Part shown: positions 290-4,254 of the stretch, one piece after another
How positions within the stretch are numbered: the stretch's first letter is position 1
Layout of the letters: each line of letters begins with the position of its first letter
Assembly: GCA_022572465.1 (NCBI GenBank)
Contig: JACZVV010000009.1
Span: 1-47,384 of the forward strand
Reading direction: 5' to 3'
Source of the DNA: Chloroflexota bacterium
GTDB lineage: Bacteria > Chloroflexota > Dehalococcoidia > SHYB01
DNA: 47,384 nt
Made by a program: the position numbers and the translations under genes
The notes under the pieces: model-generated
Database searches by the model: none
What the model saw: only the letters and a program-made list of their open reading frames with translations
What the model was told of the DNA's origin: nothing

Positions 290-1621
290 TCACTTGATGT
301 GGGCCGCGTAATCCTCGCCGATGTGGCCCTCCCGCTCCAGGCGGTCGTAGGTCTCGCCGGTCACGCCCAACAGCTCGCGGTAGACGTAGCCGTTGTGCTC
401 GCCCAGGCGGATCGGCGGCTGCCGAATGCTGTTGGGCGTCGCCGAGGCCCGCCACATGATGCCGGGGTAGGGATAGGCGCCGATGTCGGCCTGGGTGATC
501 GTCTGGAAGAATCGCCGCGCCTCCAGGTGCGGGTCCCGGTAGGCGTCGGCGTCGCTGATGACCGCGCCGGCGGTGACCCCGGCCCGTTGCAGACGCTCCA
601 TGGCCTCGTTGGGATCGCGCCGCGCCGTCCAACCGGCGATGATCTCGTCCAACGCGTCGTGGTTGCGCCTGCGAGCAAGGATCGTGCGGAAGCGCGGATC
701 GTCCAGGAGGACGGCCCGCCCGATAGCCCGCGCAAACCGTCTCCACTCCGCCTCGCCGCCGACGGAGATGGTGATCCAGCGGTCGTCGCCTCGGCAAGGG
801 TAGCAGCCCTGGGGCGTGCGATACGGGTCCCGGTTGCCCAGAGTATCCTGCACGCGGCGGTTCATGGTGTAGTCCATGATGGCCTCGCCGAGGTTGGGGA
901 TCATGTTCTCCACCAGCGACAGCTCAACGTGCGCCCCCTCGCCGGTCGACCGCCGCCGGTGCAGCGCCGAGACGGCCGCGAAGGCGGCCACCAGGCCCCC
1001 TGATGCGTCGGCGAACAGCACCTCGTCCTTGCTGGACATGTCCAGGTCGGGGTAGCCCCGGATGTAGGTGTGGCCCGAGACCGCCTCCACGTGGCTTCCA
1101 TAGGAGCGATAGTTCTTGTACTCGCCCTCGAGGCCGTAGGCCGGCATCTGCACCATGACGATGTCGGGCCTGATCGACCGCGCCCACTCGTAGGTGACGC
1201 CGAGCCCCTCGGCGGTCTCGGGGACGTTGTTCTCGATCAGCACGTCGGAGACTCGCAACACCGACTCCAGCACCTCCATGCCCTCAGGCCGCCGCAGGTC
1301 GACGGTGAAGCTCCGCTTGTTTCGCGAGTGGTTCTGAAACAACGAGAACCGGTTCCAGGGCCGCTCGCCGGGCTCGTCGTTGGGGTAGGCATGGCGCCAA
1401 CTCCGGAGCGCGATGACCTCTTCCTTCGAGGGCCGGGCGACGTTGCCCCGGGTGGCCGTCTGGAAATGCTGCGTCGACTCGACCTTCAACACGTCCGCTC
1501 CCCAATCGGCCAGAAACATCGTCGCCGAGGGCCCGGCCCACACGAGGGTCATGTCGACGACGCGCACGCCTGCCAGAGGCAAGCGGACGGCGGGTCCACC
1601 GGCCGGCGATGGCGACGCCAC
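290..1621 (-). CDS. CaiB/BaiF CoA-transferase family protein
   Basis: LPLAGVRVVDMTLVWAGPSATMFLADWGADVLKVES N-terminus and class III CoA-transferase architecture; 443 aa ORF. Confidence 0.9.
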   Translation of the reverse strand: MASPSPAGGPAVRLPLAGVRVVDMTLVWAGPSATMFLADWGADVLKVESTQHFQTATRGNVARPSKEEVIALRSWRHAYPNDEPGERPWNRFSLFQNHSRNKRSFTVDLRRPEGMEVLESVLRVSDVLIENNVPETAEGLGVTYEWARSIRPDIVMVQMPAYGLEGEYKNYRSYGSHVEAVSGHTYIRGYPDLDMSSKDEVLFADASGGLVAAFAAVSALHRRRSTGEGAHVELSLVENMIPNLGEAIMDYTMNRRVQDTLGNRDPYRTPQGCYPCRGDDRWITISVGGEAEWRRFARAIGRAVLLDDPRFRTILARRRNHDALDEIIAGWTARRDPNEAMERLQRAGVTAGAVISDADAYRDPHLEARRFFQTITQADIGAYPYPGIMWRASATPNSIRQPPIRLGEHNGYVYRELLGVTGETYDRLEREGHIGEDYAAHIK

Positions 1622-2830
1622 TCAGATCACCCCCGCGGCGCGGAGCCTGCCCAGGTCACGCCGGCTGAACCCCAGCTCGCCGCACAGCACCTCTTCGTTG
1701 TGCTGGCCGAGGGTCGGCGCGGCGCGCCGGGGCTGACGGTCCATGGTGTGCACTCGAAACGGACGGCCGGGATACTCGATCGAGCCGGTAGCGGAATGCG
1801 AGATGGTCTCCCAGTACCGCCGCTGACGAAAGTACGGGTCTTCGATGGTGTCGCGGGAGCTATAGACCGGCCCCGAAAGCAGCTTGCGGCTCTGGGCCTC
1901 TCGCCAGATATCCCGCATGCCCCGCTCCATCCACCACGGCAGGATGTACGGCTCCAGTTCCTCTGCCGCTTCGACCCTGTTGCGAGCCTCCACCGTCGCG
2001 AAACGCGGGTCCTCCGCCAGCTCGGGGTGGCCGACCATATCCATCACGATGGGAAACCAGTGGGCCTGGGCCGCGACGCTAAAGTAGCCGTCGGCGCAGG
2101 GCCGCACGCCGCCTCCCAGCGCGCCGGGCCTGCGCGCGCGCCCGTTCACATGGCCGATGAATTGATAGGCGATCAGCATCGTGGCGCGGCGGTCCTGGCC
2201 CGCTGCCTGGGTCTCCATGATGGAGACGTCCAGGTGATCGCCCCGCCCGGCGTCGTCGACGCCGAACAGCGCGATGACGGTCGCCAGAGCGGCCGCCTGG
2301 CCCGCGTGGCTCTGGACCACGCTGCCGCCCAGCTTCATCGGCTCGCGGCCGGGGTAGCCCGTGGCGAACATCGGCCCGCCCATGGCGTACTCCGTGATCT
2401 CGCCGGCCCGGAAGTCCCGGTAAGGGCCGTCCTGCCCGAAGTTGGAGATCGAGGTCAGCACCAAACGAGGTTGCAGGGCCGACAGGGCCTCGTAGCCGAT
2501 GCCCAGGCGGTCCATCGTCCCCGGGCGGAAGCTCTCGATCACCGCGTCGGCGCCAGCGGCCAGCTCGCGGAAGATCGCGCGGCCGGTCTCGTGCCGCAGG
2601 TTGAGCGTGATGCCTCGCTTGCTGGTGTTGAGGTGAAGAAAGAGGCCGCTTCGTTCGGGGTGCGGCAGGTCGCCCTGGAACGGCCCCCTGGTGCGCGCCG
2701 GGTCGCCGCCCCAGGGCCGCTCGACCTTGATGACGTCGGCGCCGTAGTCGGCCAACAGCTTGGCAGCGAGGGGCCCGGCGACGTGGTGCGTCAGGTCGAG
2801 GACGCGGAGGCCGGCCAGGAGCGCGGTCAT
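1622..2830 (-). CDS. CaiB/BaiF CoA-transferase family protein
   Basis: MTALLAGLRVLDLTHHVAGPLAAKLLADYGADVIKVERPWGGDPAR; abuts the downstream CoA-transferase; internal ATG start preferred over 2866. Confidence 0.88.
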   Translation of the reverse strand: MTALLAGLRVLDLTHHVAGPLAAKLLADYGADVIKVERPWGGDPARTRGPFQGDLPHPERSGLFLHLNTSKRGITLNLRHETGRAIFRELAAGADAVIESFRPGTMDRLGIGYEALSALQPRLVLTSISNFGQDGPYRDFRAGEITEYAMGGPMFATGYPGREPMKLGGSVVQSHAGQAAALATVIALFGVDDAGRGDHLDVSIMETQAAGQDRRATMLIAYQFIGHVNGRARRPGALGGGVRPCADGYFSVAAQAHWFPIVMDMVGHPELAEDPRFATVEARNRVEAAEELEPYILPWWMERGMRDIWREAQSRKLLSGPVYSSRDTIEDPYFRQRRYWETISHSATGSIEYPGRPFRVHTMDRQPRRAAPTLGQHNEEVLCGELGFSRRDLGRLRAAGVI

Positions 2831-2877
2831 GGGGGAAGAGTACTTCGAATGGGGAACGAGAGACAAGGGAGGCAGGG

Positions 2878-2917
2878 GACCTCACCCCTGTCCCCTCTCC
2901 GCGAGCGGAGAGGGGAA
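2878..2917. repeat. Left terminal inverted repeat with REP-like palindrome (CCCCTCTCCGC-GA-GCGGAGAGGGG)
   Basis: gacCTCACCCCtgtCCCCTCTCCGCgaGCGGAGAGGGGaatt; reverse complement matches 3286-3328. Confidence 0.85.
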
Positions 2918-3217
2918 TTGAAGAGCCGCGGCGATGCGCTCCATGACGCCTTCCATGCCGCCGTTAACCTCGTCGTTCGTGAAGCGCAGGACGCGCAGCC
3001 CCAGGCTTTCCAGGAACGCCTGCCGGACGGAGTCTTCCTGGCGCGTGTACTGGTGCACCGGTCCCTCGATCTCGACGACCAGGCTGGCCTCGGCGCAATA
3101 GAAGTCCACGAGGAAGCGATCGATGGCGTGCTGGCGGCGGAATCTGGAGCCAAAAAGGCACCGGTGTCGCAGGCGCTTCCACACCGCGGCCTCCTCCGGG
3201 GTAGGATTGCGGCGCAT
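2882..3217 (-). CDS. DUF559 domain-containing protein (endonuclease-like)
   Basis: MRRNPTPEEAAVWKRLRHRCLFGSRFRRQHAIDRFLVDFYCAEASLVVEIEG...RVLRFTNDEV is the DUF559 signature; C-terminal residues are encoded by a flanking palindromic repeat. Confidence 0.88.
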   Translation of the reverse strand: MRRNPTPEEAAVWKRLRHRCLFGSRFRRQHAIDRFLVDFYCAEASLVVEIEGPVHQYTRQEDSVRQAFLESLGLRVLRFTNDEVNGGMEGVMERIAAALQFPSPLAERGQG

Positions 3218-3285
3218 CTGGCGCGCCAGCGGCTTCAGCCGTTCCCAGAGTTCGGGAGCTGTCGCCCAGGGAATCTCTCCCGAAG

Positions 3286-3328
3286 ACCCCCTCTCCGCAG
3301 GCGGAGAGGGGGATTAGGGGGTGAGGTC
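3286..3328. repeat. Right terminal inverted repeat with REP-like palindrome (CCCCCTCTCCGC-AG-GCGGAGAGGGGG)
   Basis: CCCCCTCTCCGCagGCGGAGAGGGGGattaGGGGGTGAGGtc, inverted relative to 2878-2917. Confidence 0.85.
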
Positions 3329-3333
3329 GTCCC

Positions 3334-4254
3334 CTACAGCACCTCTCGCAGGAAGCCGCGGAGCGTGTCGGCGAAGGCGATGGGCTGGTCGCCCTGGACG
3401 GTGTGGCCCGCGCCCTCGATGGTGACGCAACGGCCGTTGGGCAGCGTCGCGGCCAGCTTCTCGGCGTCCTCGCGGTGGAACACGGTGCTCTCGCTGCCGT
3501 GGATCACCAGCGTGGGGCAGGGAATGCGCGGGACCTCTTCCCACAGCTTCTCGTTCGCCTGGAGCGCCTTCTGAGCCTGCTTCTCCCGCTCCTCCTTCGA
3601 CACCTCGCCCTGGGGCTGGCCGTACTTCCACGTCCACCGGCCGTCGTCCCGTTGCTTCAGGGCGTGGAGCAGGCTGTAACGCAGGTGGGCCTTCGGGCGC
3701 AGCGGGTTGAACTGGTGAGCGTACTCCAGGGCGTCGTCGATGGAATCGAACTCTCGGCGCCCGCGGATGAAATTCCCCACCTCGTCGAAGCCCTTCCGCT
3801 GGATGGTGGGGCCGACGTCCACGATGGCCACCGCCAGGAGCCGGTCGGGATAGCGCCCCGAGTAGGCGATGGTGTTCAGGCCGCCCATGGACATGCCCAC
3901 CAGCGCCAGCCGCTCAAGGCCCAGCGCCTCGATCGCCTCGCGGACGTCCTCCCTCTGAGCTTGGGGCGAGCCGTCGCTGTCTTTCGGCGCCTCGGTCTCG
4001 CCGTGTCCACGCTGGTCCAGGGCCAGACAGTGAAACTCGTCGCGGAGCTGGAGACAGACCAGGTCCCAGGTGTGGGCCGTCTGGTTCCCGCCGTGAAGGA
4101 ACAGCACGGGCGTTCCCGTGCCGCCCCAATCCAGGTAGTGCATGCGAAGGCCGTTGGCCTGGACGTAGCCTTCGCCGGGGGCCGACGTGTCGGGAAGCTC
4201 GAGGCCGAAGGCCTGGGCCGCGTCCAGAAGCGCGTCGTGCGTCTCTTGCGTCAT
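3334..4254 (-). CDS. alpha/beta hydrolase
   Basis: GTGTPVLFLHGGNQTAHTWD, LALVGMSMGGLNTIAYS (GxSxG), PTLVIHGSES and GAGHTVQGDQP motifs; start at MTQETHDALL (ATG at 4254). Confidence 0.9.
   Translation of the reverse strand: MTQETHDALLDAAQAFGLELPDTSAPGEGYVQANGLRMHYLDWGGTGTPVLFLHGGNQTAHTWDLVCLQLRDEFHCLALDQRGHGETEAPKDSDGSPQAQREDVREAIEALGLERLALVGMSMGGLNTIAYSGRYPDRLLAVAIVDVGPTIQRKGFDEVGNFIRGRREFDSIDDALEYAHQFNPLRPKAHLRYSLLHALKQRDDGRWTWKYGQPQGEVSKEEREKQAQKALQANEKLWEEVPRIPCPTLVIHGSESTVFHREDAEKLAATLPNGRCVTIEGAGHTVQGDQPIAFADTLRGFLREVL

Follow-up and report, generated by a model that had tools for sequence, protein, structure and literature searches.

Stand-alone DUF559 nuclease genes are paired with tagged BoxC/TM-type palindromes across bacterial phyla

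Introduction

Why does a short DUF559 gene lie exactly between two inverted, tagged palindromes, and do gene and palindromes belong together? The question is raised by positions 2878-3328 of the window, i.e. the whole stretch of 47,384 nucleotides of Chloroflexota DNA that was analysed. A sequence-only reading of this locus had likened it to RAYT genes and REP palindromes, and had proposed that the unit moves with its own palindromes, the DUF559 endonuclease being the candidate mobiliser.

Two bodies of earlier work bear on the question. BoxC/PIT/TM_ECO repeats have the consensus CCCTCNCCC-N3-6-GGGNGAGGG-N3-GGGNGAGGG, that is, a hairpin plus a third strand (Holder et al., 2015, PMC4666352). 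Intrastrand-triplex repeats were found in more than 260 genomes, genetic variability was higher around them, and triplex formation was shown in vitro with E. coli oligonucleotides (PMC4666352). Among DUF559 proteins, YcjD of E. coli was assigned to the PD-(D/E)XK nucleases (PMC1189080), and Caulobacter VsrA, for which a role as repair nuclease was proposed, causes DNA damage in vivo in the absence of the methyltransferase ScmA (PMC12907096).

Results

Layout of the unit

The features of the unit are as follows (window coordinates):

2878-3328: whole unit, tag-hairpin-DUF559 gene-hairpin-tag, 451 bp, with an exact 11-bp terminal inverted repeat (TIR) and two palindromes of 24-26 bp
2878-2888: left tag GACCTCACCCC, defined by the exact 11-bp TIR
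2882-3217, minus strand: ORF of the DUF559 (PF04480) Vsr-like nuclease, 111 aa from the ATG
2891-2916: left palindrome TCCCCTCTCCGC-GA-GCGGAGAGGGGA, 12-bp perfect arms and 2-nt loop
3287-3312: right palindrome CCCCCTCTCCGC-AG-GCGGAGAGGGGG
3318-3328: right tag GGGGTGAGGTC, defined by the exact 11-bp TIR

The earlier description of an ORF bounded by inverted palindromes in a unit of about 450 bp was therefore accurate, and the ends of the unit are terminal inverted repeats such as those of an insertion sequence or MITE. The core of the left palindrome (2892-2915) is CCCCTCTCCGC-GA-GCGGAGAGGGG. The final DUF559 codons run through this palindrome, as had been read, and the TGA of the tag (GGGGTGAGG) serves as its stop codon. 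The sequence of the unit showed no target-site duplication.

Within the left tag, the stretch 2880-2888 mirrors the 5' hairpin arm (8/9), and a mirror of 8/9 is present at both ends of the unit. Because the tag mirrors the 5' arm, hairpin and tag can be assigned from their sequence to the intrastrand-triplex architecture of BoxC/PIT/TM_ECO, with the triplex itself predicted here and the tag as its putative third strand. In its general form, the left palindrome agrees with the consensus published for TM_ECO. An 834-aa ORF (1070-3574, plus strand) lies antisense over the CoA-transferase gene, the DUF559 unit and part of the hydrolase gene, and is probably a spurious GC-rich frame.

The DUF559 protein

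The window ORF matched the DUF559 Pfam profile with an E-value of 1.4e-31. ATG 3217 is its only standard start codon. The Pfam match continues upstream of this ATG, up to 3238, and residues common with relatives (PW.T.PELWE.LKPLARQM) extend to about 3274, in a stretch that holds no ATG, GTG or TTG; the start is therefore uncertain, and the real N-terminus may lie as far upstream as about 3274. The family-invariant residues E16, D45, E56 and H62 (numbered on the 118-aa translation of 2882-3238; pattern E...D...E..H) are all present, and D58 of the family is replaced by E. An AlphaFold model (pLDDT 85) was compared using Foldseek and matched 3hrl (NGO0050; E 3.8e-6) and I-Bth0305I (E 1e-4); its matches to AbaSI and Vsr were weaker. 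Profile, catalytic pattern and modelled fold identify the protein as a predicted Vsr-like PD-(D/E)XK nuclease. The top NCBIfam match was PRK09767 (E 3.4e-21, below the curated cut-off of that model). PADLOC returned weak matches alone, to DpdF, a methyl-directed REase and a HEase, and filing under defence systems was dropped for this reason. DUF559 genes are under purifying selection, with dN/dS values of 0.03-0.24 for nearly all measurable pairs.

The palindrome family in the genome of the window

The genome (G000) consists of 2.9 Mb in 160 contigs and is 83% complete. Seven palindromic sites were found in it at up to 2 mismatches, and the tag plus 5' arm pattern CCTCACCCN{2,7}CCCTCTCC occurred in 22 copies (11+11); the reversed-pattern control gave 0 in each case. 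The copies are not due to chance, and the palindrome, far from occurring only at this locus, forms a dispersed family. Several solo copies have the tag-hairpin form, and a second hairpin of the GTGGCCCGATnnnATCGGGAC-GGGGTTGAGG type is present in three. In the solo elements L001, L009 and L010, the tag-hairpin precedes a second hairpin TCCCGATnnnATCGGGA and an end of the GGGG(T)TGAGG type, giving a MITE-like element of about 70 bp. Another copy (L007, contig C26, 5574-5623) is a near-perfect palindrome of about 53 bp, tagged on both sides (CCTCACCCCCATCCCCCTCTCC...GGAGAGGGGGATGGGGGTGAGG). An Rfam search gave no match. Profile searches of this 83% complete assembly detected a single DUF559 gene, that of the window, and no Y1_Tnp (PF01797) gene.

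Pairing of DUF559 genes with tagged palindromes

DUF559 loci were drawn from 294 genomes of the same class, from 80 named loci of many phyla (picked for closeness to the window query) and from annotated records. Pairing was tested on 152 unique stand-alone DUF559 loci, using 250-bp flanks. The two flanks had an identical word of 15 nt or more in common in 72/152 loci (47%) vs 2/591 control windows (0.3%) from the same loci; 36 of the shared words were direct and 36 inverted. Hairpins with pyrimidine/purine arms stood on both sides of 78/152 loci vs 0/331 controls, and on at least one side of 131/152 (86%) vs 17/331 (5%), by a hairpin criterion that was fixed after part of the loci had been seen; the shared-word test is independent of this criterion. 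At the tag position, 5' of the pyrimidine arm, 30% had mirror matches and 21% direct matches of at least 7/8; the opposite side gave 2%, and shuffled sequences 3-4%.

The repeats vary in sequence from locus to locus (CCTCACCCC..CCCCTCTCC; CCTAACCCCCTGACCCCCTTCCC; ATCCCCCTTAATCCCCCTTT; CCCCTCAGTCGCTTCGCGACAGCTCCCCC) and their theme is constant. Flank repeats were shared by 38-42% of DUF559 pairs at 55-70% protein identity and by 2-4% of pairs at 30-45%; in the next flanks outward, 3-6% of the same high-identity pairs shared repeats. For DUF559 genes of different lineages within one genome, flank repeats were shared in only 3/25 pairs, and the five DUF559 genes of genome G061 have largely different flanking repeats. 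Since sharing tracks protein identity and differs within one genome, the repeat type goes with the DUF559 gene lineage and not with the genome.

Particular arrangements were seen at two further loci. On S. meliloti pSymB (CP090106.1, W04), five inverted TM pairs have a spacing of exactly 105 bp (e.g. 2671404/2671509), which corresponds to a miniature element of fixed size, and one of these pairs adjoins a DUF559 gene; the 105-bp pairs may be the known RIME repeats. In N. gonorrhoeae (NZ_CP119142.1, L164), the DUF559 gene homologous to 3hrl lies between direct repeats of about 85 bp that contain CCTCTCCCTGTGGGA(A/G)AGAG-TAGAGAGAGGGC.

Repeat number and DUF559 presence

Among the 294 same-class genomes, which are phylogenetically non-independent, the median repeat number was 10 with a strong DUF559 match (n=81) and 0 without (n=187). 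Genomes with only weak or partial DUF559 matches had a median of 1 (n=26), not different from those with none. Permutation within taxonomic families gave p=5e-5, the lowest value that this test can give. The effect was present in Y1-positive and in Y1-negative genomes (RAYT-negative, p=3e-11). Y1 in genomes without DUF559 made no clear difference to repeat number (medians 1 and 0). Twenty sampled Y1 loci had different terminal hairpins of their own: 16/20 shared words of at least 15 nt, and 1/20 had TM-type hairpins on both sides. RAYT was rejected as the mobiliser of the palindromes on three grounds: the genome of the window has no detected Y1 gene, Y1 adds no effect, and the hairpins of Y1 loci are different. 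Many repeats were also found in some genomes without a detected DUF559 gene: G001 (31 copies, 97% completeness), G066 (190), G120 (123) and G214.

ycjD and BoxC in E. coli

The E. coli DUF559 gene is ycjD (b1289), which lies beside BoxC, with CCCCTCACCCTAACCCTCTCCCCAGAGGGGCGAGGGG downstream; in strain ECA64, a second, inverted repeat copy lies at the 3' end of ycjD. The fabI-ycjD-sapF stretch was held at 80% or more by 3331/5426 E. coli genomes, and about 2000 others matched at the fabI end only. Two fabI-only genomes were read (O157:H7 JEONG-1266 and strain 4/0) and both have an efflux operon after fabI; strain 4/0, read as far as sapF, has no ycjD. The operon in the place of ycjD in strain 4/0 (L233) is of the RND/MFS type, and many fabI-only genomes are apparently arranged likewise. 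In strain ETEC6 (L232), ycjD is a decaying copy split by IS1.

TM-like places had a median of 18 in ycjD-positive (n=37) vs 5 in ycjD-negative strains (n=23; p=5e-10 after subtraction of the ycjD copy), in a 60-row spread of related strains with few independent events; a small number of lineage events may account for the difference. One ycjD-negative strain has 18 TM-like places. BoxC is present or absent by E. coli lineage at the adk-hemH, hrpB-mrcB and tauD-hemB sites. No clean empty allele or target-site duplication was found at these three sites, where the alternative alleles are unrelated short sequence with no insertion boundary.

Turnover of the DUF559 locus

One genus of Dehalococcoidia, g24, varies at the intergenic site that follows an acyl-CoA synthetase gene: six genomes hold a DUF559 unit there, of type one in G127, G116 and G204 and of type two in G075, G193 and G103. 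The unit is inverted in G222 and is missing from G024, G160, G214 and G231, of which G160 and G231 keep short C-rich remnants; G089 and G171 have other genes at the site. The DUF559 gene of G116 (L235) has a broken frame, and looks like a frameshifted, decaying copy. The same TIR unit was found in distant Chloroflexota (L055, L063 and L197).

DUF559 copies within one genome are mostly 38-56% identical; more similar copies were found in G048 (81%), Viridilinea (81%) and G023 (93%, tandem). Multi-copy transposition of the whole unit was mostly rejected, because duplicates are rare and paralogues mostly diverged. From the variation at the g24 site and the rarity of recent paralogues, we conclude that turnover of the DUF559 gene is slow and that the short repeats are numerous, a pattern shared with RAYT and REP.

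These results divide the earlier proposal. The RAYT/REP analogy stood as an association, in that DUF559 genes across bacteria lie between cognate tagged palindromes, and was not supported as an account of a 450-bp hopping element: mobility of the unit itself was not borne out, the window gene being the sole copy in its genome and no target-site duplication being seen. As for empty-site alleles, presence and absence do vary at the g24 site and in E. coli, and none could be defined at the window locus, where the hydrolase orthologue of same-family genome G002 adjoins different genes.

Discussion

A model of cognate enzyme and repeat

We propose that stand-alone DUF559 proteins are the cognate enzymes of BoxC/PIT/TM repeats, acting on them and probably spreading them in trans; we put the probability of this reading at roughly 0.55. 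It is built on the architecture of the unit, the generality of the pairing, the lineage-matched repeats, the link with repeat number, the purifying selection and the fold, and from these we infer recognition, cleavage and trans-mobilisation of the repeats by DUF559. The gene would bear its own repeats as its boundaries. The nuclease would recognise the repeat in its folded form, a hairpin with a C-rich third strand, when exposed during replication or transcription, and would nick or break it; repair or recombination could then copy or shuffle short repeats into new intergenic sites, in trans. The gene itself would stay mostly single copy and vertically kept, being gained, inverted or lost now and then. 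A recombination hotspot or a passenger gene could lie behind part of the pairing pattern.

The strongest competitor has the nuclease maintain or police the repeats, by resolving hairpins or triplexes at forks or through an addiction-like dependence, while the repeats spread by another route. Purifying selection, the mostly single copy, the conservation of ycjD in E. coli and the proposed repair role of Caulobacter VsrA are all in keeping with such a function. Lineage-matched flank repeats, however, suggest an origin in cis at the gene, which housekeeping would not need, and most genomes without DUF559 have few repeats; we regard this explanation as unlikely. Alternatively, the whole unit could be an element that moves autonomously, in the manner of an insertion sequence or a homing element, in the form tag-hairpin-DUF559-hairpin-tag. 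The recurrence of the TIR unit in distant Chloroflexota, the g24 site (unit present, inverted, absent or replaced), the diverged but similar copy pairs in G048, Viridilinea and G023 and the precedent of Vsr-like homing endonucleases would suit such an element, whereas the single copy in most genomes, the low identity of most same-genome copies, the missing target-site duplication and the want of a clean empty allele at the window locus make it improbable.

We give little credence to a capture of DUF559 between two hairpins moved by a Y1 (RAYT/IS200) transposase: despite the REP/RAYT precedent and the REPIN-like layout, no Y1_Tnp was detected in the 83% complete genome of the window, Y1 adds nothing to repeat number without DUF559, Y1 loci carry different terminal hairpins, and recurrent capture of one gene family across phyla would be unexpected. 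The palindromes might also be ordinary bidirectional terminators, or gene and common intergenic repeats might be co-located by chance. GC-rich hairpins at gene ends and a stop codon within the tag recall terminators, but PIT and BoxC had no terminator activity in published tests (reported in PMC4666352), control windows almost never show the pairing and repeat type tracks protein lineage, which leaves this explanation with hardly any weight.

Relation to known systems

BoxC/PIT/TM repeats have the same architecture as the window repeats, and are dispersed, intergenic and often in inverted pairs; no mobility gene linked to them is reported from their contexts in the literature (PMC4666352), whereas the present analysis pairs them with a DUF559 nuclease in many phyla. 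The DUF559 system resembles REP/REPIN-RAYT in that dispersed short tagged palindromes bound a mostly single-copy gene and the repeat type co-varies with the gene. It differs in its enzyme, a PD-(D/E)XK (Vsr-like) nuclease instead of a Y1 HUH transposase, and in its tag: the GTAG or CGTC at the foot of the RAYT/REP hairpin is absent from the window unit, which has the tag CCTCACCCC and a C-rich third strand. The Vsr-like homing endonuclease I-Bth0305I shares the fold and offers a precedent for mobility, but the window unit has no intron, and short dispersed palindromes take the place of one long target site. E. coli YcjD/PRK09767 and NGO0050 (PDB 3hrl) belong to the same protein family and both loci have flanking C-rich repeats, in variants that differ from those of the window in sequence and spacing. 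Caulobacter VsrA, of the same DUF559 family, was read as a mismatch-repair nuclease tied to ScmA methylation, and repeats were not considered (PMC12907096). A link between DUF559 and BoxC/TM repeats was not found in the open literature; most subscription papers were outside the scope of this search, and priority is not certain.

Significance

Knowledge of BoxC/TM repeats goes back to the 1990s; they abound in E. coli and cyanobacteria and have been linked with genome instability, and DUF559 is the first good candidate for the machinery that spreads BoxC-type repeats. The DUF559 family, for its part, is very common and has no known function, and the pairing gives repeats and enzyme each a testable role, including in E. 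coli K-12. It also suggests that REP-like systems arose with a nuclease unrelated to HUH transposases. More tentatively, and with somewhat less confidence than in the cognate pairing itself, DUF559 genes and C-rich tagged palindromes may form a second, RAYT-independent class of REP-type systems across phyla, in which a PD-(D/E)XK nuclease acting on triplex DNA would spread repeats in trans. If true, such a class would explain the origin of BoxC in E. coli and of many unnamed C-rich repeats.
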